Of a stretch of DNA of 64,000 bases, positions 2,236 through 56,189 are shown piece after piece. How positions within the stretch are numbered: position 1 is the stretch's first letter; each line of letters starts with the position of its first letter. Where the stretch lies: the NCBI RefSeq assembly GCF_014204895.1, contig NZ_JACHMF010000001.1, positions 3,968,001-4,032,000 of the forward strand, given 5' to 3'. The notes beneath the pieces were generated by a model. That model searched no databases and was not told the origin of the DNA. It worked only from the letters and a program-made list of their open reading frames with translations. Position numbers and translations under genes: made by a program. Source of the DNA: Paractinoplanes abujensis (GTDB lineage Bacteria > Actinomycetota > Actinomycetes > Mycobacteriales > Micromonosporaceae).

Positions 2236-2979
2236 CTAGTTCAGCTCAGGCACCTTCAGGCCCAATTGCCGGAACGCGATGGTGTTCGCGCGGCGCAGCA
2301 CGTCGATCTGAGCGGCGTTGTAGAACACGGCCATGGCGTCGGCCAGGGTCTGCCGGTTGCTGTGCTTGCCGGTCGACAGCCGAGCCACCGGATCTCGCAT
2401 CCAGGGATAGTCGACCAGGCGTTGCACAAGGGCCGGCACGAGTCGCTCGACCAGGTGCCGGCGAGCCGCCTCATCGGCGTCCGGCGGTAGGGCCTCGAGC
2501 TCGCGGCCGATCAGATCGGTATCGGCTTCGGCCATCCGGCGGAAGTCTTTCAGTACGTCGTCGTCATACAGCTGGCCGTAGACGTGCAGAAGCGACGTGT
2601 CGATCTCCGACAATCGCGACGCCACGGATTCAAAGCCCGCCGGGACATGAGCCGGGGCGTCGCCACGGATGATTGTCGCGATCGTCGACCGCATCTCCCC
2701 GAGCTGCTCGACCTTGGCCGAGAGGGCGGCGTCGAGCTGTCGCATCATCTCCGGGTCGAGGTCGCCGTCCCGGTCGAGCTCAGCGATCTGGGCCAGAGAC
2801 AGCCCCATGTCGGCGAGTTGCCGGATGCGCAGCAGGGTGACCAGATGCTGAACGTCGTACTGCTTGTAGCCGTTGTGCCGGCGCTCCGGTTCCGCGAGCA
2901 GGCCCACTCGGTGGTAGTGCCGGACGGCATTGACCGTCGTGCCGGCCAGTTCAGCGACCTCACGGGTACTCCAGGCCAC
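2236..2979 (-). CDS. MerR-family transcriptional regulator
   Basis: MerR-type DNA-binding regulator (about 247 aa). The N-terminal winged helix-turn-helix reads WSTREVAELAGTTVNAVRHY and is followed by the typical RHNGYKQYD wing and a dimerisation helix (LRIRQLADMGLSLAQI). The C-terminal 150 residues are helical and match no effector-binding domain I recognise; they contain no cysteine pair of the metal-sensing type. The start chosen is GTG at 2979 with a strong AGGAGG-like site upstream; an in-frame ATG further upstream would add an unrelated 80-residue extension. The gene is divergent from the S33 hydrolase gene, whose promoter has the long 19-bp spacer typical of MerR targets. It is the natural candidate controller of that promoter and of the similar copies elsewhere in the window. 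Confidence 0.85.
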   Translation of the reverse strand: MAWSTREVAELAGTTVNAVRHYHRVGLLAEPERRHNGYKQYDVQHLVTLLRIRQLADMGLSLAQIAELDRDGDLDPEMMRQLDAALSAKVEQLGEMRSTIATIIRGDAPAHVPAGFESVASRLSEIDTSLLHVYGQLYDDDVLKDFRRMAEADTDLIGRELEALPPDADEAARRHLVERLVPALVQRLVDYPWMRDPVARLSTGKHSNRQTLADAMAVFYNAAQIDVLRRANTIAFRQLGLKVPELN

Positions 2980-3101: not shown

Positions 3102-3132
3102 TTGACTGTGTTGCGGCAACACACTGTTTGCT
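3102..3132 (+). promoter_or_regulatory. MerR-type promoter, copy A (S33 hydrolase)
   Basis: The -35 box TTGACT (3102-3107) is followed by a 19-bp spacer and a -10-like TTTGCT (3127-3132). The spacer holds the dyad GTGTT-GCGGC-AACAC. The long spacer with a centred dyad is the hallmark of promoters untwisted by MerR proteins. It lies 42 bases before the hydrolase start and just upstream of the divergent merR gene. It matches copies B-F in arrangement and bases. Confidence 0.75.
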
Positions 3133-3173
3133 CGTGATCAGCATGGGTTGCTCGCCGACGAAGGAGAGACGCC

Positions 3174-4820
3174 GTGAAGGTCGGACAATGGCTTGTCGTC
3201 GCAGGTGTGGCCGTCGCACTGGCCGGCGCGACCCCGGCTCAAGCCACGGTTGCCCCGGATCGGAGCGGCGCAGCGGAGAGCCGCAAGGTGGACGCGGTAC
3301 CGACGCCCCGGCTGAGCTGGGCGGCCTGTCTGGAGATCGCCGAGTGCGCCACCGTGCAGCTGCCGCTCGATTACGACCAGCCGCGCGGCGCCACCACCGA
3401 CGTGGCCGTCCTGCGGGTCAAGGCCCGCGACCAGGCCAACCGGATCGGCAGCCTGTTCCTGAACCCGGGCGGGCCCGGCGTCTCGGCCACCCAGATCGCC
3501 CGTCTCGCGCCTTTCTTCCTGAGCGACGAGCTGCTCGATCGCTTCGACATCGTCGGCGTGGATCCGCGCGGTGTCGGCTCCAGCCGGCCCGTGCGGTGTT
3601 TCGCGTCGGCCGAGCAGCAGGCGCCGGCCCTGCGCGACCTGGGCGAGTTGTTCCCGGTCACGGAGGCGGAGAAGCGAGCGTTCGTCCGAGGTTCCCAGCG
3701 GTACGGCCGGGCGTGCTCGACCACCGGGCGGCCACTGGCCGGGTCGATGTCCACCGCCGAAGTAGCCCGTGATCATGACGTGCTGCGCCGCGCGGTCGGC
3801 GACGACAAGCTGACCTTCCTCGGCCTCAGCTACGGCAGTGTCCTCGGCCAGTACTACGCCAACATGTTCCCTGACCGCTTTCGCGCCCTGGTTGTCGACG
3901 GCGTGCTCGACGCGCGCGCTTGGGTCGGCAACACCCGGCAGATCCTCGATGAGCGGATCAACTCCTCCGGCGCCGCGTCCCGGGCGTTGTTCGAGATTCT
4001 GCGGCGGTGCGACCGGGCCGGCGAGACGGCCTGTGCCTTTGCGGCGGGCGACCCCGTACGCAACTTCGACACGATCGCCCGGCGGCTCAAGTCCAAGCCC
4101 CTGGTGATCGGAGACCGGACGATCACGTACGCGAGGTTCATCACCGACGTCCACACGGCCATGTACCTGCCGACGGCGGGCGAAGAGGTCACCGCCCTCG
4201 CCGCCGAGGTCCGGGACGCGCTCGACGGCGACACCGCGGCTCTGCTGAAGCGGCTCCGGACGGCCGGCGACCGGCCCTATGACAACAGCCGGGAAGCTGT
4301 CTTCGGCGTCCTCTGCACCGACGGCCGCTTCCCCGCCCGGGCCGCGCACTGGCCGGCCGCCGTAGCCGCCCGGGAGAAGAATGCCCCGTACTTCGGCGGC
4401 GGCGACCTGGTCTGGAAGGACAATGCGTGCGCGAGCAGCACGTGGACGGTGCGCGACGAGGACGCGTACACCGGCCCGTTCCATCGCCGCACCGCGGCAC
4501 CCGTGCTGGTGGTGGGCAACTTCTGGGACCCGTCGACCAACTACGCGGGCGCGGTCTCCACGAGCCGGCTGTTGCCCAACTCACGGCTGCTGTCCAGCAA
4601 CAACTGGGGCCACACCGCGTACGGGCGCGGTGCCTGTGCCACCGCCCTGATCGACGCCTACCTGCTGACCGGCACGCCGCCGGCCGGGAACCCGGTTTGC
4701 GCCGACGCTCCGCAGCCGTTCACGGGGAACACCGAAACGTTCGCCGAGAGCCGGGGCAAGCAACTGATTCCTGTCGTCGACCGGGCGTTCGCCCCCATTG
4801 CGGGGAACCAGGGAGCTTGA
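3174..4820 (+). CDS. Secreted alpha/beta-hydrolase, S33 tripeptidyl aminopeptidase type
   Basis: Secreted serine hydrolase (548 aa) of the Streptomyces tripeptidyl-aminopeptidase / SlpD-SlpE type (peptidase family S33). The signal peptide covers about residues 1-25 (hydrophobic core, then TPAQA). The oxyanion-hole segment NPGGPG is near residue 100, the nucleophile motif GLSYGS has Ser219, and the C-terminal TAP-like domain carries the acidic residue in DPSTNY and the histidine in WGHTAYG. The start GTG at 3174 follows an AAGGAGAG site. The family removes N-terminal tripeptides or hydrolyses small esters/amides; the substrate here is unknown. It sits behind the MerR-type promoter A and has a paralogue at 54618-56189 behind the same kind of promoter. 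Confidence 0.85.
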   Translation: MKVGQWLVVAGVAVALAGATPAQATVAPDRSGAAESRKVDAVPTPRLSWAACLEIAECATVQLPLDYDQPRGATTDVAVLRVKARDQANRIGSLFLNPGGPGVSATQIARLAPFFLSDELLDRFDIVGVDPRGVGSSRPVRCFASAEQQAPALRDLGELFPVTEAEKRAFVRGSQRYGRACSTTGRPLAGSMSTAEVARDHDVLRRAVGDDKLTFLGLSYGSVLGQYYANMFPDRFRALVVDGVLDARAWVGNTRQILDERINSSGAASRALFEILRRCDRAGETACAFAAGDPVRNFDTIARRLKSKPLVIGDRTITYARFITDVHTAMYLPTAGEEVTALAAEVRDALDGDTAALLKRLRTAGDRPYDNSREAVFGVLCTDGRFPARAAHWPAAVAAREKNAPYFGGGDLVWKDNACASSTWTVRDEDAYTGPFHRRTAAPVLVVGNFWDPSTNYAGAVSTSRLLPNSRLLSSNNWGHTAYGRGACATALIDAYLLTGTPPAGNPVCADAPQPFTGNTETFAESRGKQLIPVVDRAFAPIAGNQGA

Positions 4821-4847
4821 CCCTGTTCCCGGAACACAGTGTCTGAT
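4817..4847 (+). promoter_or_regulatory. MerR-type promoter, copy B (DUF2255/hydrolase operon)
   Basis: TTGACC at 4817-4822, a 19-bp spacer with the dyad CTGTT-CCCGG-AACAC, and the -10-like TCTGAT at 4842-4847. The -35 box overlaps the TGA stop codon of the upstream S33 hydrolase gene, so the promoter is embedded at the end of that gene. It lies 36 bases before the next start codon. Confidence 0.7.
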
Positions 4848-4882
4848 GGGTCGAGGCTGCTCATTCCGTACAAGGGGAACTC

Positions 4883-5272
4883 ATGAGCACTGGAACACCA
4901 CCCACCCGGGCTTGGGACGCGGCCGAGTTGGCAGCTCTCGACGACGCGCCGCTGATTCGGGTCGCGGGGGCACGACCGGACGGGACACTTCGCTCCTTCG
5001 TCCTGATCGGGCATGTCCGCGTCGGCGACGACGAACTCATCCGCTCGCTGAACGGGACCGGCGGCAGTTGGTACCGGGGAGCCACCCGCACCGGTCAGGG
5101 CGCGATCGAGGTCGACGGCCGGCGGATCAAAGTGGCCTTCATCGTCGACCACGGGCGCGAGGACGAGGTCGACCACGCCCTGCGGGCCCGCTACGGCCGC
5201 GGCTTCGGCGTCCGCCGGATGACCAGACCATCAGCCCGAGAGGCGACGCTCCGCGTGGCACCGCTCGTCTGA
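4883..5272 (+). CDS. DUF2255-family protein
   Basis: Small soluble protein (129 aa) resembling the DUF2255 family, which is of unknown function and often annotated near F420- or flavin-dependent enzymes. Recognisable features are the tryptophan/acidic N-terminus (RAWDAAELAAL), an arginine-rich IRV strand and the SWYRGA motif near residue 62. It starts 36 bases after promoter B, with an AAGGGGAA site before the ATG, and is followed after 32 bases by an alpha/beta-hydrolase gene in the same direction. The two probably form one operon under the MerR-type promoter. The function cannot be stated. Confidence 0.65.
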   Translation: MSTGTPPTRAWDAAELAALDDAPLIRVAGARPDGTLRSFVLIGHVRVGDDELIRSLNGTGGSWYRGATRTGQGAIEVDGRRIKVAFIVDHGREDEVDHALRARYGRGFGVRRMTRPSAREATLRVAPLV

Positions 5273-5304
5273 GCCACCATTTCCGAACAGAAAGGCGCTG
5301 TCCC

Positions 5305-6213
5305 ATGCACCTGACCATTCCTCGCGGACCGATCACGCTCGACGCCGAGCTGCACCTGCCGTATGAGCTCGACCAGACGAGGCCGCTGCCCGCGGTGGTG
5401 CTCTCCACACCCGGCAGCAGTGTCAAAGAGCAGATCGGCGCCAACTACGCCTCCCGCCTCGCCGCCCGGGGCATCGCCGCGCTGGTCTTCGACCCCGCAT
5501 ACCAGGGTCAGAGCGGCGGCGAACCCCGCGACCTGGAAGATCCGTACCAGCGGGGCGAGGACATCTCGTACGCCATCGACGCTCTCACCGCCCTGCCCGG
5601 CATCGACCCGCACCGCATCGGTGTGCTCGGCATCTGCGCCGGTGGCGGCTACGCGATTCACACGGCCCGCACCGACCACCGCATCAAAGCCGTCGGTGCG
5701 GTCGACCCGGGTGAGATCGGGGCCTCGTTCCGCAGCTTCCAGGCCGACGGACCGGTGGCCGCCCTCGACGCCATGGCCGAGGCCCGCCTCGAGGAGGTCC
5801 GCACCGGCGTGCTGCACCGGGACAACTGGCTGCCCGACACGATGGCCGAGGCCGAAGCGGCCGGCATCACCGACGTCGACCTGCTGCAGGCCATCAGGTA
5901 CTACCGAACGGAACGGGGCATCAACGAGCACTCGACCAACCGCCGGCTCTCCCGCGGCGACACGCTCCTGCTCGGTTACGACGCCTTCCACCTGGTCGAC
6001 CAGCTCATGACCCAGCCCCTGCTGCTCATCCTGGCCGAGAACCTCGAGGGCACCGGGTTCGACACCGCCGGCGAGCGGCTCTGGAAGCTCGCGCCCAACC
6101 CGGTCGAGCGCGTGATCGTCCCCCGGGCCCGCCACTACGAGATGTACGACATCCCCGAGTACGTCGACGCCGCCGTCGACCGGCTCGCCACGTTCTACGC
6201 CGACAGGCTGTGA
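5305..6213 (+). CDS. Alpha/beta-hydrolase, dienelactone-hydrolase-like (cysteine nucleophile)
   Basis: Cytosolic alpha/beta-hydrolase (302 aa) related to the dienelactone hydrolase / YcjY group. The nucleophile elbow reads GICAGGGY (near residues 112-119), with cysteine in place of the usual serine, as in dienelactone hydrolases. A likely catalytic histidine is in RARHYEMYD near residue 276. The ATG at 5305 fits the start of the conserved domain; the open frame extends upstream but shows no homology there. It probably shares the transcript of the DUF2255 gene. The substrate is unknown. It ends 1 base before the end of the convergent exporter gene, with no room for a separate terminator. Confidence 0.8.
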   Translation: MHLTIPRGPITLDAELHLPYELDQTRPLPAVVLSTPGSSVKEQIGANYASRLAARGIAALVFDPAYQGQSGGEPRDLEDPYQRGEDISYAIDALTALPGIDPHRIGVLGICAGGGYAIHTARTDHRIKAVGAVDPGEIGASFRSFQADGPVAALDAMAEARLEEVRTGVLHRDNWLPDTMAEAEAAGITDVDLLQAIRYYRTERGINEHSTNRRLSRGDTLLLGYDAFHLVDQLMTQPLLLILAENLEGTGFDTAGERLWKLAPNPVERVIVPRARHYEMYDIPEYVDAAVDRLATFYADRL

Positions 6214-6214
6214 C

Positions 6215-6841
6215 TCAGCTCAGGTCGTCGACGGCCAGAAAGCCGGCCAGGCCGAGGAAGACAACACCGGTGCCCAGGTCGACCCGTCGTTGCGTACGGG
6301 CCGGGATGCCGGTGGCGCCCAGGCGGCGGCCGAGGCCGATGTAACCGAGCCCCACGACCAGTTCGATCAGCAGATAGACGGCGCCGAGCAGGGCCAGGTC
6401 GAGGCTCGCGCCCGGCGCCGTCGTGTCGGTGAACTGGGGCAGCAGCGCGGCGAACAACAGCAGCGCCTTGGGGTTGCTGATCGCCACCGCGAACTCGCGG
6501 GTGACGATCGATCGCCAGGCCCCACCCGCGTCCGCCGGCGCGACGCCCGGGCCGGCCGGGCGCAGGCCGCTGCGCAGGCTGGACACACCGAGCCAGGCCA
6601 GGTAGACCACGCCTACCCATTTGATCGTTTCGAGGGCCGTGCCGGACGCGATCAGCACCGCGCCCAGCCCGGCCACGACCAATCCGATCAGGACGACGAA
6701 CGCGGCGAGGCGCCCGGCCACCCCGGCCATGGCCCGTGCGGCGCCGTACCGGACCGCGTTGCCGAGACCGAGCAGCTGGTTGGCCCCCGGGATCAGGGAC
6801 ACCAGCACGGCCGCGCCGAGGTATCCGGCCCAGTCAGTCAT
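6215..6841 (-). CDS. LysE/RhtB-family exporter
   Basis: Membrane exporter of the LysE/RhtB superfamily (about 208 aa), proteins that expel amino acids or similar small molecules. The N-terminus has the family pattern (SLIPGANQLLGLGNAVRYG, near residues 15-33), with about six hydrophobic segments and the conserved NPKALL motif near residue 124. The start is the ATG at 6841, preceded by GGGAGAA; a GTG seven codons upstream is the alternative. A weaker copy of the MerR-type promoter lies 42 bases upstream, so the exporter may belong to the same regulon. Confidence 0.8.
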   Translation of the reverse strand: MTDWAGYLGAAVLVSLIPGANQLLGLGNAVRYGAARAMAGVAGRLAAFVVLIGLVVAGLGAVLIASGTALETIKWVGVVYLAWLGVSSLRSGLRPAGPGVAPADAGGAWRSIVTREFAVAISNPKALLLFAALLPQFTDTTAPGASLDLALLGAVYLLIELVVGLGYIGLGRRLGATGIPARTQRRVDLGTGVVFLGLAGFLAVDDLS

Positions 6842-6882
6842 TTCTGCGTTCTCCCGCACCACCGTTGATCACTGTCCGGCCC

Positions 6883-6913
6883 ACCCGACCACACGTTCCC
6901 ACCACAGGGTCAA
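6883..6913 (-). promoter_or_regulatory. Possible MerR-type promoter, weak copy G (LysE exporter)
   Basis: On the minus strand TTGACC (6913-6908) is followed by a 19-bp spacer and TCGGGT (6888-6883). The left half of the spacer (CTGTGGTGGGAAC) matches the other copies, but the right arm of the dyad is degenerate (GTGTGG in place of ACACGG) and the -10 box is poor. Position and orientation fit the LysE gene. Confidence 0.35.
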
Positions 6914-6916
6914 GGG

Positions 6917-8125
6917 TCACACCCCCGCCACATCCATCGATTTCTCGCGGAACTGCCGGGAGATGACGCCCTTCATCACGCGTTTGACAACGGGGTTGCG
7001 GAGCAGGTTCAGGGTGACGGTCCGGGCAGTCCGGTCCCGCCTGGTCTGCGGTACGAACATCACCAGGTCCCGGTGGGCGGTCGTCTGCACGGCACCGATG
7101 AAGGGCCGCAGCTTCTGCTCCCATTCACGCAGCGCCCGGACCGGATTACCGGGATTGCGCTGGAGTGTGGTTCCCAGCAGGTCCGCCCCCGCGAGCGCGC
7201 TGCTGGCGCCCATGCCGGAATAGAGCGTCAAGGACCAGGCGGCATCGCCCAGGAGGACTACCCGGCCGGTGTGCCAGGACGGCATGCGTACCTGGTAGGC
7301 GGCGTCGAACAGCGCGTCCCCGGCCGCCCCGAACTGGTGCACCAGATCCTCGAGCACGGGCCCCAGCGGTTCGGGGCCGAAGGCCCGGCGGATCGACTCG
7401 ACCGGCGGCCGGCCGAACTCGGCCTGTTCGTCGGTCGTACGGTAGTTGAACAGCACTCCCGGCTGGTGGTCGGCGAAGGCGAAGACCCAGGCCGACCGTC
7501 CGGGCTCGGCCAGCACGAAGCCGTCACTGGCGCGGAACCCGGTCACCGGGCGCTGGAGGATGGTCGCACCGATCATGTGCCGGAACGGCAGCAGAAAGTC
7601 CTCGGGCGGGCCGAAGTGCAGGCTGCGCACCGTGGAGCGCAGCCCATCGGCGCCGACGACGAGGTCGAACCGTTCGGAGACGTCAGCCGGCCCGACCGGC
7701 GTCGTGGTCCGCAGAGTCACGAGCACGCCGTCGGCGTGCTCGTCGATCCTGACCGGTGTGGTCGCGTAGCGGATCTCGGCCCAGGGCGATACCGCGTCGA
7801 ACAGCGCCGACTCGACGTCGCCGCGCAGGACGAGCCGGGGCGCGCCGGGCAGGTCGGCATGGCCCATCCCGGGCCGACGCCGCCCGGACCGGTCGATGTC
7901 GTAGTTGCGGGCGTCGTCGTCCAGGCGGTTGCCGATGGCGTCCAGAACACCGAGCCGTTCGGCCGCGGCCCGGCCGGTGCCGAAGAGGGCGATGAAGTAG
8001 CCGGGAGCCCGGCGTTCGGCCGCTCGCTCCACGAGCACGGTCTCCCACCCGATGTCGTGCAGGCGAAGAGCGGTGGCCAGGCCCCCGATCCCCATGCCGA
8101 CGATGAGGGCACGCTGGGTCTTCAT
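6917..8125 (-). CDS. FAD-dependent monooxygenase (PHBH fold)
   Basis: Flavoprotein hydroxylase of the p-hydroxybenzoate hydroxylase group (402 aa). The Rossmann motif GMGIGG is at residues 10-15, the DG motif is in VVGADGLRSTVR, and the GD motif is in VVLLGDAAW, which binds the FAD ribityl chain. Such enzymes hydroxylate or epoxidise aromatic or polyketide-like molecules using NAD(P)H and O2; TetX-type antibiotic inactivation is also in this fold. The start ATG at 8125 has an AGAGGAA site. The gene is divergent from a TetR regulator, the usual arrangement for substrate-induced monooxygenases. The substrate is unknown. Confidence 0.85.
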   Translation of the reverse strand: MKTQRALIVGMGIGGLATALRLHDIGWETVLVERAAERRAPGYFIALFGTGRAAAERLGVLDAIGNRLDDDARNYDIDRSGRRRPGMGHADLPGAPRLVLRGDVESALFDAVSPWAEIRYATTPVRIDEHADGVLVTLRTTTPVGPADVSERFDLVVGADGLRSTVRSLHFGPPEDFLLPFRHMIGATILQRPVTGFRASDGFVLAEPGRSAWVFAFADHQPGVLFNYRTTDEQAEFGRPPVESIRRAFGPEPLGPVLEDLVHQFGAAGDALFDAAYQVRMPSWHTGRVVLLGDAAWSLTLYSGMGASSALAGADLLGTTLQRNPGNPVRALREWEQKLRPFIGAVQTTAHRDLVMFVPQTRRDRTARTVTLNLLRNPVVKRVMKGVISRQFREKSMDVAGV

Positions 8126-8154
8126 GACTGTTCCTCTACGGGCGATACCGGTTA

Positions 8155-8197
8155 TTGACCAGAAAGCTATCACGAGTCATAAACTCTGTTCGATAGC
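8155..8197 (+). promoter_or_regulatory. Divergent promoter/operator between monooxygenase and tetR
   Basis: A promoter toward tetR can be read as TTGACC (8155-8160), 18 bp, ATAAAC (8179-8184). Overlapping it are the inverted repeats GCTATC (8166-8171) with GATAGC (8192-8197), and GAGT (8174-8177) with ACTC (8183-8186). This is a plausible TetR operator controlling both genes. Confidence 0.45.
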
Positions 8198-8227
8198 ATG
8201 CGGTCAGACGAGAGAAGGGGTCGCGAG

Positions 8228-8944
8228 GTGGCGCGTCCGGCACAGGACCGAACCGAGGTCATTCTGGCCGCGGCCCGGGCGCAGTTCCGCGAAGCCGGCG
8301 TCGACCGGGCCACTGTGGACGAGATCGCGGCCCGCGCCGGTGTGGGCAAGGGGACAGTTTTCCTCTACTGGCCGTCAAAAACGCGGCTGCACGAGGCGGT
8401 CGTCGGCCTCGAGGTGGCCCGGACGCTGGCCTCACTGGCCACGGGCCTGCGGCGCGACGAACTGCGCCTGAGTCTGGGCGCCATCGCCCGGCACGAGATC
8501 ACCGCCGGCCTCGACCACCCGTCGACGGCGCCGTTACTGGCGAACCAGCTGACGTCCGCCCCCGCGCTGGCCGTCGCCCCGAGGCGTGCGCTCCGCCGCA
8601 TCGTCGACGTCATGCGGTCGTACGACCTCGTCCGGGACCTCGACACCGACGACGTCATCGCGGGCATGGAAGTGGCCATGACGGGCGCCCTGGTGCGGGC
8701 GCTCGGCGAGCCGCCGGAGCGGCCGACGATCCTGACGGCGCTCGAACACCTCGTGTCCTCGGCCTACGACCGGCTCGACGGACCCGTCGAGAGTGTCGCG
8801 GCCGCGGTGCCCGAGGTGCTCGAGGCCCTGGAGGACGCCGTCGACGCCCTCGTCGCCGCCGCCGCGCCCGACCGGCCCACCACGGCCCGGCTGCGGCCGT
8901 ACGAACGCCCACCGGCCGAGGCCCCCACCGGAGCCAGGCATTGA
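8228..8944 (+). CDS. TetR-family regulator
   Basis: TetR-type repressor (about 238 aa). The helix-turn-helix reads ATVDEIAARAGVGKGTVFLYW near residues 27-47, followed by the usual SKTRL helix. The C-terminal ligand domain ends in an acidic, proline-rich tail. I prefer the GTG at 8228, which has GAGAAGGGG at good spacing; an in-frame ATG at 8198 lies only a few bases after the predicted -10 box. It is divergent from the FAD monooxygenase, which it probably represses together with itself. Confidence 0.8.
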   Translation: MARPAQDRTEVILAAARAQFREAGVDRATVDEIAARAGVGKGTVFLYWPSKTRLHEAVVGLEVARTLASLATGLRRDELRLSLGAIARHEITAGLDHPSTAPLLANQLTSAPALAVAPRRALRRIVDVMRSYDLVRDLDTDDVIAGMEVAMTGALVRALGEPPERPTILTALEHLVSSAYDRLDGPVESVAAAVPEVLEALEDAVDALVAAAAPDRPTTARLRPYERPPAEAPTGARH

Positions 8945-8997
8945 CCGGCGTTCTCAGTCCCTGAGCGGCTGCACCGGGAAGTAGCCGACCGCCCGGG

Positions 8998-9028
8998 TTG
9001 ACCGTGTGGCACGAACACGGTTTCCAAT
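8998..9028 (+). promoter_or_regulatory. MerR-type promoter, copy C (lipoprotein/SnoaL unit)
   Basis: TTGACC (8998-9003), a 19-bp spacer with GTGTG-GCACG-AACAC, then TCCAAT (9023-9028). It lies 45 bases before the lipoprotein start. The sequence after the dyad (GGTT, then TCC) is shared with copies D and E. Confidence 0.7.
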
Positions 9029-9073
9029 GCATCTGCGCGGCCGACGAACTCGACGAGACCCGGGAGGACTGCG

Positions 9074-9748
9074 ATGTTCCGTACCCATGCCCACAACGCC
9101 TTGCTGGTGGCCGGGGTCGCCCTGACCATGTGCGGATGCGGCTCGGCAAGTCCGACGGACGCCGCGGCGCCGGTGTCGCCGGAGGCGCCGGCCTCAGCCA
9201 CGACCGCGCCCACGACGAGGCCCGCGCCCGAGCCCACCACGACCACCGGCCGGCCGACCCGCACCCCAGCCGCGGGCAGCGGCGGTGACGGACCGATCCT
9301 CAGCGGCCGGCGGCAGGTCGCCATCCGGCCGGCGGGTGGCCCCGAGGGTGTCCTGGCCGTCGACGGGCGGGGCCGGCTCAACCTCACCGACGGGGGGTCC
9401 GACTTCGCGCTCTTCGTCTTGGTGCCGGTCCGCGACGGGCTGCACCAGATCCGTACGGCCAGGGCCGGCGCCGGCGGGGAGCCGTCCTGCATGGGCGTCA
9501 AGAACAACGGGGCCGATCCGCTTACCGTCGTCGCCGCGGCTTGCGACACGCGGCGCGCGGGGCAACTGTTCCGGGTACGCACGGCGCCCGAGGCGTCAGC
9601 GGACGGCTACGGCATCAGCAACCAGGGTGCCTACCTGCAGATCTCCCCCGAGCGCGGCCTCATCGCGGAGGAACTGAGCGACGCCCCGCTGCGGACCGTC
9701 TACACGTTCGTCGACAACGGCGCGGCACCGGCACAACCCGGCAGCTGA
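9074..9748 (+). CDS. Putative secreted lipoprotein, Pro/Thr-rich linker
   Basis: Probable exported protein (224 aa) with a hydrophobic N-terminus (ALLVAGVALTM) ending in a cysteine pair that could serve as a lipobox (MCGCGS). A proline/threonine-rich linker follows (about residues 35-75), then a globular beta-rich domain of about 140 residues with repeated Gly-x-Leu/Gln-x-x-Leu patterns (for example ISNQGAYLQI), loosely like a beta-trefoil. I do not recognise a family. It is the first gene after MerR-type promoter C and is followed 32 bases later by a SnoaL-like gene, so both probably belong to the same transcript. Confidence 0.65.
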   Translation: MFRTHAHNALLVAGVALTMCGCGSASPTDAAAPVSPEAPASATTAPTTRPAPEPTTTTGRPTRTPAAGSGGDGPILSGRRQVAIRPAGGPEGVLAVDGRGRLNLTDGGSDFALFVLVPVRDGLHQIRTARAGAGGEPSCMGVKNNGADPLTVVAAACDTRRAGQLFRVRTAPEASADGYGISNQGAYLQISPERGLIAEELSDAPLRTVYTFVDNGAAPAQPGS

Positions 9749-9780
9749 CCTCTCCCGCTTCCTCGGAAGGACATCGTCAC

Positions 9781-10155
9781 ATGACTGAGGCTTCGCCTCT
9801 GACGCTCGACCGCTACCTCGCCGCCACCGACCGCGCGGTCGCCGACAAGGCGGCCCTGGACGACCTGCTCGGCCTGTTCGCTCCGGATGCCGTGGTGCAG
9901 ATCGACGACACCCCGGTCCAGGGCGCGGCGGCCATCCGTGAGTTCTATCAGGGGTTCGTCGCTTTCCACACCGCGACCAAGCACTACTGGAACACCACGG
10001 TGCTGCCGGACGGCCGCCAACGGGTGGAGTGGGTGTGCGCGGCCCGCACGATCGACGGCGCGGTCATCACCGTCGCCGGCATCGAGCACGCGGTCATCGG
10101 GCCGGACGGGCGCATCGTCGAACTGCGCAACACCTTCACCCGCCGGCCCGGTTGA
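9781..10155 (+). CDS. SnoaL-like / NTF2-fold protein
   Basis: Small NTF2-fold protein (124 aa) of the SnoaL-like group, whose members are polyketide cyclases, isomerases or binding proteins. The family shape is visible: an N-terminal helix (LDRYLAATDRAVADKAALDDLLGLFAPDA, given here in part), the strand VQIDDTPVQGAAAIREFY, and a final strand ending ELRNTFTRR. The ATG at 9781 has a GGAAGGA site 11 bases upstream. Candidate catalytic residues cannot be assigned with confidence. It is probably co-transcribed with the preceding lipoprotein gene. Confidence 0.75.
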   Translation: MTEASPLTLDRYLAATDRAVADKAALDDLLGLFAPDAVVQIDDTPVQGAAAIREFYQGFVAFHTATKHYWNTTVLPDGRQRVEWVCAARTIDGAVITVAGIEHAVIGPDGRIVELRNTFTRRPG

Positions 10156-10168
10156 CCGGAACGCCGGT

Positions 10169-11386
10169 TCAGGGCGCGGCGATGCCGCCGTCGGCATGCC
10201 GGTCGCGGTCGCCCGAGCCGGCCGCTGGCTCGACTTTCGGTTCCTGCCAGACGAGCACGACGACCACGGCGATCAGGAAGACGGCCGTCAGTGCGGTCGG
10301 AACGGGGATGATCGGGTCGATGAGGACGAGGAGGGCCCCCGCCGGAACAACCGCGTTGATGACGCCGTTGGCCACGGGGCGGATCACGAGCAGCCAGACG
10401 CCGAGCATGAAGACGGCAATCGGGACGGTGTAGGCGAAGGACGCGCCTGGCGGGTGCAATTCGCTGTGACCGGTGAGGACGTCGATCTCCACTTCGATTC
10501 CGGCCGAGAAGGCGCCGGCCGCGGCGAAGATGAAGTAGTGGCCGTAGCCGTACAAGAAGGTCTTGGAGAACCCGTCGATGGTGTGGTGATGCGGGGCCCA
10601 GAAGTAGATCCACCACAGCCCCGCGGTGACGATCAGGGTGAGCGCCGAGATCATGATGAGCGGGCCGAGAGAATCCGCCTCGCGAAGCGCCTCGATGATG
10701 GCGTTCGCCGAAGCGAGCAGGCTCTCACCCAGCAGAATGAGGGCGAAGAGCCCGTGCCGCTCGGCCAGGTGGTGCGGGTGCCACGGAGTCCCGCCGCGGC
10801 GCTCGGCCACCACGGGCACGGTGAGCTCGGCCGCCACCAGGATCAGGAACACTACGGGCAGGGCGTCGGCAGGAAGCAGCAGACTGGTCAGCCAGAGGAT
10901 CTGCACCAGGGTGACGCCGGTCGCATAGGTGAGGGCGGAGCGGCGCGTGTCCGAAGCCGCCCGCGCAGCGCGGAGCCACTGCCCGACCAGCGCGAACCGC
11001 ATGAGCACGTACGACAGGACGACGAGGGCGAAGTCGTGGTCGGAAAAGACGGGTTCGATGCCGGAGGCGAGGACGAGGACGCCGCCCATCTGGACGATGG
11101 TCATCAGCCGGTAGAGCCAGTCGCCGGTGTCGAACGAGGTGGCGAACCAGGTGAAGTTCACCCAGGCCCACCAGATGCCGAAAAACACGAAGGCGTACGT
11201 GAGGACGCCCTCGAAGATGTGCCCCTCGGTCAGCTCATGGTGGAGCTGAACCGAGGCGATACTGACGGCGACGACGAACACCAGGTCGAAGAACAGCTCA
11301 AGATTGGACGCGCTTCGGCCGGGCTCGTGGGGGTTGCGCGGCCGCATCGGCACGAGCCGGTAACGACTGTGGGGTGCTGCCATCAT
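10169..11386 (-). CDS. Low-temperature-requirement A (LtrA) family membrane protein
   Basis: Polytopic membrane protein (405 aa) of the LtrA family, of unknown biochemical role. The N-terminus carries the family signature NLELFFDLVFVVAVS near residue 28. About ten hydrophobic segments follow, with the conserved ERHGLFALILLGESL near residue 208. The first of two adjacent ATGs is chosen, with a TAAGGGCAG site. A strong MerR-type promoter (copy D) lies 92 bases upstream in the correct orientation. The gene converges on the SnoaL-like gene with a 13-base gap. Confidence 0.8.
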   Translation of the reverse strand: MMAAPHSRYRLVPMRPRNPHEPGRSASNLELFFDLVFVVAVSIASVQLHHELTEGHIFEGVLTYAFVFFGIWWAWVNFTWFATSFDTGDWLYRLMTIVQMGGVLVLASGIEPVFSDHDFALVVLSYVLMRFALVGQWLRAARAASDTRRSALTYATGVTLVQILWLTSLLLPADALPVVFLILVAAELTVPVVAERRGGTPWHPHHLAERHGLFALILLGESLLASANAIIEALREADSLGPLIMISALTLIVTAGLWWIYFWAPHHHTIDGFSKTFLYGYGHYFIFAAAGAFSAGIEVEIDVLTGHSELHPPGASFAYTVPIAVFMLGVWLLVIRPVANGVINAVVPAGALLVLIDPIIPVPTALTAVFLIAVVVVLVWQEPKVEPAAGSGDRDRHADGGIAAP

Positions 11387-11477
11387 CTGCCCTTACTCGG
11401 ATTGCGAAGGTTGAGGACCGCAGACGACCGGAGCGCCCGTCGTAGGTCAGCCCCCTTGTCGCGGCCGGACGGCTCCT

Positions 11478-11508
11478 ACTGAAAACCGTGTTCCCACAAC
11501 ACAGTCAA
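11478..11508 (-). promoter_or_regulatory. MerR-type promoter, copy D (LtrA)
   Basis: On the minus strand TTGACT (11508-11503) is followed by a 19-bp spacer with the perfect dyad GTGTT-GTGGG-AACAC and the -10-like TTCAGT (11483-11478). Transcription would run into the LtrA gene. The spacer is nearly identical to copy F at 54542. Confidence 0.75.
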
Positions 11509-11541
11509 GAAACTGCGCCACGCCACCGCGGCCGGACGGTG

Positions 11542-12405
11542 TCACCGGCGGCCCCAGAACAGACGGCAGGTCGTCGGGAACCGGTAGCCGCCGTCCGGCT
11601 CCCGGTAGGTGCCAGCCCTCTCGATGATGCGGGACACGGCCTCCGCTCGGCCGGCGGGCTCCAGCGACGTGAAGAAGGCGCCGAAAGGAGTGTGCTCGAG
11701 CACGTCGACGAGTGAGTCCCGGTCCGGGATGCGGGTGTCCCAGCTGAGCGGGGCCTCCTCGACAGTGGTGACGCCGGCGCGCAGCAGAAGGTCAGCTCGA
11801 TGTCCCGGATCCGCCAGGTAGTTGATCGCCGACGGGTCAGGGAGCGACTCACCCCCGGGAAAACCGCTCAGGACCGATCGGAACAACGTGATCAGGGTGT
11901 TCAGCTCGCTTCGGTCCCACACCGCGAACGAGTAGGCGGCGCCGGGCCGCAACACCCGGGTCGCCTCGGCCAACGACAGGTCGAGGGTCTGATGATCCAG
12001 CATCAGGAAGGCAAAACGGGAGACGAGCAGGTCGACCGACGCCGACGCGACGGCCGTGTCACTCATCAGCCTGGTCTCGAACGTCGTGTTGTCGAAGCCG
12101 AGGCTGCGGGCCTTGGCCCGGGCGATCTCGACCATCAGGTCCGCCCGGTCGACGCCCAGCAACCGGACCGCCGGGTGACGCGTCCTGACCGTCAACCCCG
12201 GCTCGCCGGTACCGCACCCCAGGTCGAGGACGAACGCACCCGGCGCCGGGTCGGGCAATCGTTCCACAATCGCTTCGGCGACCGGCCGGATGAGGAACTC
12301 GAGCCGGTCCCAACCCCGGGCGGCCTCGTTGTAGTCGGGTTGGCCGAGGCTGGAGGGCGAGATCTGCCGGGCGAGTTGCCGCCGGCGATGAGCATCACCG
12401 CCCAT
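11542..12405 (-). CDS. Class I SAM-dependent methyltransferase
   Basis: Soluble methyltransferase (287 aa). Motif I is DLGCGTG at residues 61-67, with the acidic residue of the second strand in GVDRADL and the motif-IV-like stretch VDLLVSRFAFLML. The family methylates small molecules using S-adenosylmethionine; the acceptor is not readable. The start overlaps the end of the epoxide hydrolase gene by 11 bases, which implies translational coupling and a joint task, probably successive modification of the same or related compounds. Confidence 0.8.
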   Translation of the reverse strand: MGGDAHRRRQLARQISPSSLGQPDYNEAARGWDRLEFLIRPVAEAIVERLPDPAPGAFVLDLGCGTGEPGLTVRTRHPAVRLLGVDRADLMVEIARAKARSLGFDNTTFETRLMSDTAVASASVDLLVSRFAFLMLDHQTLDLSLAEATRVLRPGAAYSFAVWDRSELNTLITLFRSVLSGFPGGESLPDPSAINYLADPGHRADLLLRAGVTTVEEAPLSWDTRIPDRDSLVDVLEHTPFGAFFTSLEPAGRAEAVSRIIERAGTYREPDGGYRFPTTCRLFWGRR

Positions 12406-13525
12406 AGTGCCGGAACGCGTTTCTGATCTCCGTGACCAGCACCGCGGGCTGCTCCCAGCCCGGGAAGTGGCCGCCCCGCTCCATCTCGTTCCAGCTGATC
12501 AGTTTGCGGAACCGGCGCTCGGCCCATCGCCGGGCGATCGGGTACGGCTCGCCGGGGAACAGCGAACACGCCGTGGGAACCTCGATCGGGCGGGCGTTCT
12601 CCGCCTCCGCGCCCAGCGGTGTGTCGCGGCGGGCCTCCCAGTACCACCGAGAACTGGAAGCTCCGGTACGGGTGAACCAGTACAGCGCGATGTTGTCCAC
12701 CTGCCGTTGCAGCGGCACCCCGTCGTCGTCCGCGAACGCGGTCAACCTCTCACCCAGCCACGCGGCCAGCCCGGCCGGCGAGTCCAGCAGCGAATAGCCG
12801 ATCGTCTGCGGTTTGGCACCGAGAACGATCGAGTGGGTGCCGTCCACGAACAGGAACTGATCGCGCTGGGCGATCATCGCCTGCTCCTTGGGGTCGGCGC
12901 TCTGGCGATCCTCGGGAAGGGGGGACGCGACGGGCATTGTCAGGTGCAGGCCGACCAGACGCTCGGGCACCTGGGTGGCGAGCTCGATGGTGACGAAAGC
13001 GCCCCAGTCGCCGCCGTGCGCGGCGAACCGCGAGTAGCCCAGTTCCGTCATCAGCGTGGCCCAGGCCCGCGCGGTCCGGGCCAATCCCCAGCCGGTTTCA
13101 GCGGGGCGGCCGCTGAAGCCGTACCCCGGCAGCGACGGAATCACCACGTGGAAGGCGTCCTCGGCCGAGCCGCCGTGCGCGACCGGATCGGTCAGCGGCC
13201 CGATCAGATCCTCGAACTCCAGCACGGACCCGGGCCAGCCGTGGGTCAGCAGCAGCGGTACGGCCGACGGCTCGGGCGACCGCACATGCCAGAACGCGAT
13301 GTCCAGTCCGTCGATGTGCGCCCGGTGGTGACCGATCGTGTTGAACCGTTCTTCCAGCTTCCGCCAGTCGTGGCCGCGCCAGGCCTCGAGCAGTGTCCGC
13401 AACCGGTCCAGGGAGACGCCTTGCGAGGGATCGGTCTCGAGCTCCGGCAGCCTCACCCGGTCGAGGCGCCGGGTCAGATCCACCAAGTCATCCTCGGGGA
13501 TGTGGACGGGATAGGACTCGATCAT
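12395..13525 (-). CDS. Epoxide hydrolase (EHN-domain alpha/beta-hydrolase)
   Basis: Epoxide hydrolase of the microsomal type (376 aa). It has the N-terminal EHN lid domain (residues 1-90), the oxyanion motif HGWPGS (95-100), the aspartate nucleophile in GGDWG (Asp173) and the catalytic histidine in GGHFPGWEQP near residue 356. It adds water to epoxides through an aspartyl ester. It is transcribed from the right and overlaps the methyltransferase gene. Promoter E lies 280 bases upstream, leaving an unusually long leader. Alternative: juvenile-hormone-type or limonene-type substrates cannot be separated by sequence alone. Confidence 0.85.
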   Translation of the reverse strand: MIESYPVHIPEDDLVDLTRRLDRVRLPELETDPSQGVSLDRLRTLLEAWRGHDWRKLEERFNTIGHHRAHIDGLDIAFWHVRSPEPSAVPLLLTHGWPGSVLEFEDLIGPLTDPVAHGGSAEDAFHVVIPSLPGYGFSGRPAETGWGLARTARAWATLMTELGYSRFAAHGGDWGAFVTIELATQVPERLVGLHLTMPVASPLPEDRQSADPKEQAMIAQRDQFLFVDGTHSIVLGAKPQTIGYSLLDSPAGLAAWLGERLTAFADDDGVPLQRQVDNIALYWFTRTGASSSRWYWEARRDTPLGAEAENARPIEVPTACSLFPGEPYPIARRWAERRFRKLISWNEMERGGHFPGWEQPAVLVTEIRNAFRHYGR

Positions 13526-13804
13526 GCGGCGCTCCTCGGTCAGTGCGAAATCGGTGTGCCGCCACCTCTGAAGCGGGCAGCAGGCCGGAGACGGCGCGTC
13601 TGTCCGCCGGCCCCCAGAAGATCAACTTTGCGCCTCGGTGGTCGCGTGAAGCTCACACGTGCGCGGCTCCCGCGCTGCCGGACGCGCCTCGGGTGTCCTG
13701 AAGACCGCCACGGGCATCGCCGTCCGTCCTTCCACTAGGTACGCCGTCGGCCACGAACTCGGCGGACCGTCCCCGTCCGAGCCGAGCCGCTCTTGTGCCT
13801 CTCC

Positions 13805-13835
13805 AGTGGAAACCATGTCGTTGCGACACAGTCAA
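13805..13835 (-). promoter_or_regulatory. MerR-type promoter, copy E (epoxide hydrolase/methyltransferase)
   Basis: On the minus strand TTGACT (13835-13830), a 19-bp spacer with GTGTC-GCAAC-GACAT, then TCCACT (13810-13805). The dyad is imperfect but the -35 box, spacing and GGTT-TCC end agree with the other copies. The leader to the epoxide hydrolase start is about 270 bases and contains a possible 31-codon reading frame at 13622-13717. Confidence 0.6.
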
Positions 13836-54541: not shown

Positions 54542-54572
54542 TTGACTGTGTTGTGGGAACCCCGTTTCTCAT
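54542..54572 (+). promoter_or_regulatory. MerR-type promoter, copy F (second S33 hydrolase)
   Basis: TTGACT (54542-54547), a 19-bp spacer with GTGTT-GTGGG-AACCC, then TCTCAT (54567-54572). The left 16 bases from TTGACT are identical to copy D at 11.5 kb. The right dyad arm has one mismatch. It lies 45 bases before the hydrolase start. Confidence 0.7.
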
Positions 54573-54617: not shown

Positions 54618-56189
54618 ATGCCCCGTGTTCTTCATCGCGTCCTGGCGGCCCTGCTGACCGTCGGCGCCGGCCTCGTCGCCGCGCCCGCGGCCCACGCCGG
54701 CACCTCCCCCGTCCAGCGCACTGTGGACGCGGTGTCCACGTTGCGGTGGGGTGCCTGTCCCACCGGTGCGCCGGCTCCACAGGAGTGTGCAACGCTGCAG
54801 GTGCCGCTCGACTACCGCCACCCGCACGGCCGGGCCATCTCGGTGGAGGTGTCGCGCATCCCGGCAGCCGATCCGGGGAAACGCAAAGGCGTCCTGATGC
54901 TCAACGGCGGGGGCCCCAGCGCGGGCCTCGACGTGCCGGCCTCCCTCGGCGCCCTGTTGCCCGCCGAAGTGCGTGACCGCTATGACCTGGTGGCCTTCGA
55001 CCCGCGCGGTATCGGCTACAGCACGCCGATGAGCTGCGGCCGCGGCGCCGACGAGCTGATCCGTGACGTGCAGCTGTCACTGCTTTCCTTCCCCGCCGCC
55101 GACGGCTCGATCGGCGCGAACGTGTCGTTCGCGAAGCGGATGGCCAAGCAGTGCGCCGCGAACTCCGGTGACCTGCTGAGGCACATCACCACCGCGAACG
55201 TCGCCCGCGACATGGACCGGATCCGCCGGGCGCTGGGTGAGCGCACGGTTTCCTACTACGGCCTCTCCTGGGGTACGTACCTCGGCTCGCTCTATCGGGC
55301 CCTGTTCCCGCGCACCGTCGACCGGATGGTGCTCGACAGCTCGGTCGATCCGTATGTCCGCGGCTACGACGATTTCCGGACTTTCAGCGTCGCGCTGGAG
55401 GACCGCTGGCCTGACCTCGCCGCGTTCGGCGTCGCCAACGCCGGCTCCGTACGTCTGGGCACCACCGCACGACAGGTGCGGAAGAACTATCTGGCGCTGA
55501 CGGCGCAGCTCGACCGCCACCCAGTCATGCTGACCGAGACCCTGGCTCCGATCAACGGCAACTTCGTCCGGCTGTTCACGTGGCTGCTGTCTTACAACGA
55601 CGCCGCCCTCATCGCCACCGAGGAAGAGCCACTTCCGCAGATGGCTCAGCTGTGGCGCGCTGCCGGTGCTGTTGCCGCGGGACACGCCACCAGCGCCGAT
55701 CGTGCGTTCCTGGCCGGCCTGGCCAACGGCCTGGTCGCCGGCGGCACGCTCCCGAACGTCCCGCAGGACAACCTCCTCTCGGTCGGGTGGGCGTACAGCT
55801 GCGGCGACAAGGCCTGGCCCCGGAACGTCGGAACGTACGCCCGCAACGTCGCGGCCGACCGGGCCGCGTTCCCACTGACCGCCGGTGCTCCCGCGAACGT
55901 CGCACCCTGCTCGGCGTGGGCCGTGCAGCCGGCCGGACCGGAGCCGGCGGTCGAGCCGATCGGCCGGCGTGACGTGCTGATTCTGCAGAACGAGCGGGAC
56001 CCGTCCACCCCGCTCAACGGGGCCCGCGGCATGCGCCGGGCGATGGGTTCGGACGCCGTGCTGGTCACCGTCGACGCCGGCGGCCACGGCGTGCTGATCC
56101 ACCCGAAGCCGAACGCCTGCGCGATCGGCGCCCTCACTTCCTATCTCACCACCGGAGCTTTGCCCGCCACCGACAAGGCCTGCGCGTAA
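54618..56189 (+). CDS. Secreted alpha/beta-hydrolase, S33 tripeptidyl aminopeptidase type (paralogue)
   Basis: Second secreted S33 hydrolase (523 aa). Signal peptide about 1-27 (ends AAHAG), oxyanion segment NGGGPSAG near residue 95, nucleophile Ser217 in GLSWGTYLG, acidic residue in ERDPSTPL and histidine in GGHGVL. It is clearly related to the protein at 3174-4820 (matching LRWGACP, CATLQVPLDY, FDPRGIGYS) but diverged. ATG 54618 has an AGGAGA site. The shared promoter type suggests joint induction of both enzymes. Confidence 0.85.
   Translation: MPRVLHRVLAALLTVGAGLVAAPAAHAGTSPVQRTVDAVSTLRWGACPTGAPAPQECATLQVPLDYRHPHGRAISVEVSRIPAADPGKRKGVLMLNGGGPSAGLDVPASLGALLPAEVRDRYDLVAFDPRGIGYSTPMSCGRGADELIRDVQLSLLSFPAADGSIGANVSFAKRMAKQCAANSGDLLRHITTANVARDMDRIRRALGERTVSYYGLSWGTYLGSLYRALFPRTVDRMVLDSSVDPYVRGYDDFRTFSVALEDRWPDLAAFGVANAGSVRLGTTARQVRKNYLALTAQLDRHPVMLTETLAPINGNFVRLFTWLLSYNDAALIATEEEPLPQMAQLWRAAGAVAAGHATSADRAFLAGLANGLVAGGTLPNVPQDNLLSVGWAYSCGDKAWPRNVGTYARNVAADRAAFPLTAGAPANVAPCSAWAVQPAGPEPAVEPIGRRDVLILQNERDPSTPLNGARGMRRAMGSDAVLVTVDAGGHGVLIHPKPNACAIGALTSYLTTGALPATDKACA

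Follow-up and report, generated by a model that had tools for sequence, protein, structure and literature searches.

Twenty-two promoters of Paractinoplanes abujensis are very probably worked by a small MerR family present in many actinobacteria

Most characterised activators of the MerR family serve one or a few promoters each, and in known MerR operators the AC of the -35 element and a matching GT form the ends of the dyad. According to an excerpt of PMC8113463, the dyad at MerR targets lies within a spacer of 19-20 bp. In the present study, this MerR-family feature, a dyad within the 19-bp spacer of the target promoters, was found beside a merR gene in a 64,000-nucleotide stretch of Paractinoplanes abujensis DNA (contig NZ_JACHMF010000001.1, positions 3,968,001 to 4,032,000; hereafter the window, to which coordinates refer unless genome positions or loci are named). 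The genome (9.33 Mb) holds 22 promoters of this type, and they are very probably worked by a small MerR family that is present in many actinobacteria. From comparison of sequences, we hold with high confidence that the sites are operator-promoters of the MerR subfamily herein called MerR-A. A sequence-only reading of the window had put the link to MerR forward as inference, and it is now supported by co-occurrence, adjacency, the pairing of recognition helix and half-site, and conservation at orthologues.

First, five sites, at 3102, 4817 and 8998 on the plus strand and 11508 and 13835 on the minus strand, stand exactly where that reading had placed them, and their alignment bears out TTGACY, a 19-bp spacer and GTGTT-N5-AACAC or a near match. 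Together they read TTGACY-N19-TnnnnT with a 21-bp dyad, ACYSTGTT-N5-AACANNGT, in which the -35 AC is included. The shared -10 element TCnnAT claimed for them did not hold, as it fits 4817 and 8998 only (3102 has TTTGCT, 11508 TTCAGT and 13835 TCCACT) and is matched by 40 of 200 unique sites from the own and related genomes; the -10 feature common to all five is TnnnnT. As had been described, the sites point into the starts of transcription units, the distances from site end to start codon being 42, 36, 46, 92 and 280 bp in the order given, and the first is divergent from merR (2236-2979, minus strand). These MerR-type promoters precede the TAP-like hydrolase gene (3102..3132, +), the DUF2255 and dienelactone-hydrolase-like genes (4817..4847, +, with a -35 that overlaps the stop codon of the upstream hydrolase gene), the lipoprotein and SnoaL-like genes (8998..9028, +), the LtrA gene (11478..11508, -, with no mismatch to the pattern) and the epoxide hydrolase and methyltransferase genes (13805..13835, -). 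All five promoters were present, and a sixth, upstream of a second TAP-like hydrolase gene (54542..54572, +), had been missed. With up to three mismatches, the pattern matched the window six times, against none in 100 shuffles. A weak half-site before a LysE-like gene (6883..6913, -; score 17.3, profile E-value 0.39) lies below the threshold and was not counted, and is perhaps a decaying member of the set.

A profile scan of the whole genome, which had been suggested as a check, showed the regulon to be far larger than five promoters. The pattern gave 21 matches in the genome, against 1 for the backwards pattern, and a sequence-only profile built from 60 sites returned 21 sites at E <= 0.0066; the site at 54542, at E = 0.067, was included because it has one mismatch to the pattern, giving the total of 22. 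The profile search scores 150 first-look candidates per genome, and weak sites may be missed. There were 36 profile matches at E <= 1, the remaining 14 being opposite-strand readings of sites or weak partial matches, and six congeners without MerR-A gave 11 matches at E <= 1 and none at E <= 0.1. Twenty of the 22 sites lie between 3.448 and 4.241 Mb (7e-20 for an even spread, with the range picked post hoc). The best of the weak partial matches, outside the main clusters (genome 1606370-1606392, -; E 0.030) was not counted as a site. Within the dyad, pairing across the 200 sites is highest (88-99%) at 4, 5, 6, 9 and 10 bases on either side of the centre, figures that are biased by the selection of sites through pattern and profile. 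In a free-offset test, TGTT-N5-AACA palindromes were located and TTGAC was then sought in the preceding 30 bases. Counted by strand, there were 12 palindromes in own-genome loci, 118 in relatives and 86 in the best 80 loci of a GTDB scan, to which figures for named loci refer (about 6, 59 and 43, as each is seen on both strands); TTGAC accompanied 5, 55 and 38 of them, starting 7 bp before TGTT in 5, 54 and 37. Most loci had been chosen for containing a MerR gene or a site, which biases the palindrome count but leaves the fixed offset unaffected. At a score of at least 30, 205 sites were observed in 81 loci of 28 genomes (27 with sites), one relative having 44 in the regions read. A gene start lies within 600 bp of 191 of these (median 46 bp, quartiles 31 and 73), and 14 have none within that distance; 4 lie inside called genes.

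Second, MerR-A and the motif occur together. Among 250 genomes of the family, MerR-A (E <= 2e-55, identity of at least about 48%, with the cut towards the sister subfamily MerR-B set after the list was seen) was found in 27 and the motif, with up to two mismatches, in 29, both being present in 26 and neither in 220 (Fisher p = 7e-31, kinship uncorrected, ten candidates scored per genome); the backwards control pattern had no match across the 250. The sole MerR-A genome without the strict motif (G159) has an in-frame TGA in its MerR-A gene and still holds one weaker site nearby, and the three motif-only genomes all hold MerR-A fragments (residues 2-95 directly before the site in G149, residues 1-110 about 4 kb from it in G264, and residues 59-125 about 15 kb from it in G188). 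The number of MerR-A copies was correlated with that of sites (Spearman 0.82, computed on 25 of the 26 genomes that have both, leaving out G086, which is partial). Among 97 MerR genes with Asn at the helix position described below, read in longer loci, a site scoring at least 27 lies within 300 bp of 48, within 1 kb of 68 and within 4 kb of 89. The best 80 loci comprise 26 from Micromonosporaceae, 21 from Microbacteriaceae, 10 from Micrococcaceae, 9 from Promicromonosporaceae, 4 from Streptosporangiaceae and others, and 59 of them carry a strict site, against none of 400 resampled sequences.

Third, the recognition helix and the half-site change together, and this paired change is the strongest evidence that MerR-A would be the reader of these sites. 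MerR-B, with 37-45% identity, occurs alone in 16 further genomes and has Lys or Arg at helix residue 17, where MerR-A has Asn. A strict scan of the 20 MerR-B loci read (16 from B-only genomes and 4 from genomes with both) revealed a TTGAC promoter of the 19-bp type with a GTGCC-like inner dyad in 16, one of them (L207) reading as GTGTC. The MerR-B half-site is GTGCC..GGCAC as compared with GTGTT..AACAC in MerR-A, and no TGTT-N5-AACA palindrome was present in these loci (118 kb). The MerR-B promoters lie before a TAP-like hydrolase gene in 11 loci and before the MerR gene in 6, and all 8 of the hydrolases checked carry PF08386 and PF00561. For each of 119 MerR proteins, the closest candidate promoter up to 3 kb away was picked blind to the varying bases. 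The 98 proteins of the Asn type gave T/A half-sites in 74 cases, C/G in 1, mixed in 7 and no candidate in 16, and the 21 of the Lys/Arg type gave C/G in 18, T/A in 1 and mixed in 2 (Fisher 4e-17 for the two clear half-site classes, kinship uncorrected); the mixed cases are mostly chance matches, with a better site slightly further off. The exact B motif was observed in 13 of 16 B-only genomes, in none of 18 A-only genomes and in none of 19 with neither. A quick tree with 118 rows requires two changes of the helix label, and the relevant forks have moderate Shimodaira-Hasegawa-like approximate likelihood ratio test (SH-aLRT) values, 89 and 85; the second change is L236, a Promicromonospora protein on the A side whose promoter has GTGCC..GGCAC. 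Section 15 of PMC5045206 places the most significant half-site correlations of metal MerRs at a single position of the helix, where the pairs are C-K and G-K (CueR type), T-E and A-E, and our alignment, in which the Lys of CueR stands opposite Asn17 of MerR-A, would make this position residue 17 here. Near the MerR-B genes of one genus (g20: L190, L193, L194, L197 and L201), the nearest candidate is TTGAG..GTGCC..GGCACACC..TAAT, 0.7-1.1 kb off, and this dyad variant may not be a promoter of the type described here.

Fourth, the sites are kept before the same orthologues in related genomes, a further check that had been proposed. LtrA homologues, sought in 60 congeners, gave 32 matches in 25 genomes, and 30 loci were scanned. 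Among homologues with at least 70% identity, the own genome included and all from MerR-A genomes, a site was found in 6 of 6; the distance from site start to the downstream match is 64-122 bp, and one of the sites is weak (score 29). No site was found at the three homologues with 62-63% identity, from genomes without MerR-A, or at the 21 with 50% identity or less (5 in MerR-A genomes and 16 not). Genome G011 has counterparts of the window genes, 60-96% identical, in a partly rearranged block of about 35 kb, at whose opposite end merR and the hydrolase gene are found. As in the window, sites precede the genes for the hydrolase, the DUF2255 protein, the lipoprotein, LtrA and the epoxide hydrolase, and an extra one precedes the methyltransferase gene. 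The MerR of this block groups with that of the window, at 60% identity.

Several observations weigh against MerR-A as the reader of these sites. Sixteen of the 98 Asn-type genes lack a candidate promoter up to 3 kb away (9 of these in short loci of 3.7 kb), and 5 of the 97 have no site anywhere in their longer loci. One Lys-type MerR (L207) is accompanied by the half-site GTGTC, and the B motif, once one mismatch is allowed, turns up as well in 2 of the 18 A-only genomes and in 3 of the 19 with neither subfamily. The pairing amounts to two independent switches on a moderately supported tree, and the Fisher values therefore overstate independence. In addition, the table of PMC5045206, as excerpted, lists T-R as overrepresented (9 counts), and Arg is therefore not restricted to C/G in the metal MerRs of that table. 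No relatives of the sensor domain were recognised and a model of this domain yields no ligand clue, and no result ties any site to one particular paralogue.

The window MerR (2236..2979, -) was characterised by Pfam, PDB sequence matches and prediction. Its helix-turn-helix (HTH), residues 5-69, matches PF13411 (E = 5e-15) and PF00376 (E = 1.3e-10), both above the cut-off, with the recognition helix TTVNAVRHYHR; a dimerisation helix is predicted after it, followed by an all-helical C-terminal domain of about 135 residues without a Pfam match. The PDB sequence matches of the N-terminal domain are TipAL and CueR, and all 12 families listed for the NCBIfam metal and stress equivalogs (CueR, CadR, MerR, ZntR, HspR, NmlR) stayed below the cut-off, the best score being 41.7 bits against 147.4 for CueR. 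Herein, we propose that a MerR-A dimer would bind the 21-bp dyad inside the over-long 19-bp spacer, that a signal sensed by the C-terminal domain might cause MerR-A to distort the spacer, and that the main sigma factor could then use the -35 and -10 elements. Short MerR-A forms of 117-151 residues, as delimited by the gene caller, recur in other loci (L130:8880-9266, L147:7776-8201, L150:12308-12712, L128:7576-8031, L186:3108-3485 and L126:12430-12783), with the HTH and dimer helix kept and the sensor domain gone, and these might be competitors, constitutive activators or decayed copies. More distant MerR paralogues (L144:16944-17684 and L025:1498-2223; about 40% identical where they match) also lie near site clusters, the own-genome member of the two standing 6 kb from the site at genome position 4240779.

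Two close paralogues of the window MerR (genome 207279-208004 and 3721412-3722131), each 57% identical to it, lie 1.1 and 0.8 kb from the site closest to them. The three proteins have the helix TTVN(A/T)(V/I)RHYHR in common, with a near-identical wing, and regulation by the window MerR alone therefore cannot be claimed. The earlier proposal of one MerR for all sites is supported at the level of the MerR-A subfamily, but not as sole control by the window protein, and the three paralogues probably have operators in common, at least partly. A variant that does not exclude the above, in which the five window sites are served mainly by one of the other two paralogues and the window MerR acts on the divergent hydrolase promoter only, seems doubtful: the common helix and wing, the long branch of the window MerR in the quick tree and the distance of several genome sites from any MerR-A gene are in its favour, but the MerR grouping with the window's recurs beside the same target block in G011. 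It is very improbable that the sites are read by a different regulator, such as the TetR-like protein encoded inside the block (8228-8944), or by an alternative sigma factor, since co-occurrence, adjacency, the helix/half-site pairing and the position of the dyad within a 19-bp spacer favour MerR, even though a dyad alone does not identify its protein. Least probable of all is that the sites are not operators but copies of a repeat that has spread, as the numerous near-identical 31-mers in one genome region might suggest, given that no likeness beyond 31 bp was seen by eye in the oriented flanks of 21 own-genome copies, that distances to start codons are narrow and that orthologous sites are kept.

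As to what MerR-A would control, the window promoters lead, by Pfam, to genes for a probably exported TAP-like alpha/beta hydrolase (3174..4820, +; PF00561, PF08386), a DUF2255 protein (4883..5272, +), a dienelactone-hydrolase-like alpha/beta hydrolase (5305..6213, +), a putative lipoprotein without a Pfam match (9074..9748, +), a SnoaL-like protein (9781..10155, +), an LtrA family membrane protein (10169..11386, -; PF06772), an S-adenosylmethionine-dependent methyltransferase (11542..12405, -), an epoxide hydrolase with EHN and abhydrolase domains (12395..13525, -) and the second TAP-like alpha/beta hydrolase (54618..56189, +). The first genes behind the 191 sites encode TAP-like hydrolases (40), GPP34 proteins (16+3), MerR-A, an orphan RFRWWQ protein and epoxide or ankyrin-epoxide hydrolases (10 each), ABC ATPases (9), CAAX proteases (8), Zn-dehydrogenases, carboxylesterases, AAA-LuxR and LtrA proteins (7 each), GNAT proteins (6) and smaller groups, with 20 that fit no group; in the TAP-like cluster, a crude test revealed an N-terminal hydrophobic run in 35 of 41 members. 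The best 80 loci hold 117 sites at a score of at least 27. Of the 68 outside Micromonosporaceae, 29 precede one small membrane protein family, 5 MerR-A, 4 epoxide hydrolase, 3 GPP34 and others further genes, 12 a gene outside the clusters, and 8 lack a gene within 600 bp. First genes differ outside Micromonosporaceae, and the core target therefore differs between families. Four of 10 small membrane proteins checked show sub-threshold likeness to PF06695/VTT, families linked to DedA in PMC7818093. Two unusual arrangements were also observed, a fusion of ankyrin repeats and epoxide hydrolase of 704 residues 7 bp after a site (L171:3559-5673; genome 3723058-3725172, -) and a tandem pair of differing GPP34-like genes with one site each (L167:10442-11128 and 9743-10378; Pfam covered the first gene and, in place of the second, a member of its cluster). 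The small-molecule hydrolysis and modification proposed by the sequence-only reading is part of the picture and proved too narrow, as the wider set adds ABC exporters, membrane proteins, GPP34 and regulators. We suggest, a little short of even confidence, that the Actinoplanes target set responds to a lipophilic toxic compound or envelope stress, which would involve export and hydrolysis of the compound or repair of membrane stress. More tentatively, 2-5 MerR-A paralogues with one helix might feed about 20-45 promoters in Actinoplanes as a global envelope and toxin response that includes bacterial GPP34 (Golgi phosphoprotein 3-like) proteins and small membrane proteins, the short forms being competitors or constitutive activators.

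Thus, the MerR architecture seems to have grown to a 22-promoter regulon read by several paralogues, and the sister subfamily shows a switch of specificity. The set also offers a regulatory context for bacterial GPP34 proteins, called previously undescribed in prokaryotes in an excerpt of PMC12402492, and any of the 22 promoters is a ready reporter for finding the inducer of the MerR-A sensor domain. No description of the subfamily, the motif or the regulon was found in the literature searched. CueR, BmrR, EcmrR and MtaN resemble MerR-A in the MerR HTH, the dyad in a 19-bp spacer and the AC/GT dyad ends, whereas MerR-A has 22 promoters, several paralogues that apparently act on one operator type and a C-terminal domain for which no relative was recognised. 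TipAL of Streptomyces, which gave the best PDB match (2vz4) when the N-terminal domain was compared as a single sequence, is likewise an actinobacterial MerR with an added C-terminal domain, but has Arg at the specificity position in the alignment, and the window MerR has no TipAS Pfam match. In the metal MerRs of PMC5045206, the same helix position varies with the half-site as here and Lys pairs with C/G, although Asn is unlisted there at that position and MerR-A differs by its long C-terminal domain. BldC of Streptomyces is also MerR-like and actinobacterial, but, as an excerpt of PMC5859096 describes it, has neither a dimerisation nor an effector domain and binds to direct repeats. The regulon described herein is of a known kind, the MerR regulon, and is a variant of it through its size, the operator apparently common to its paralogues and the switch between two subfamilies.

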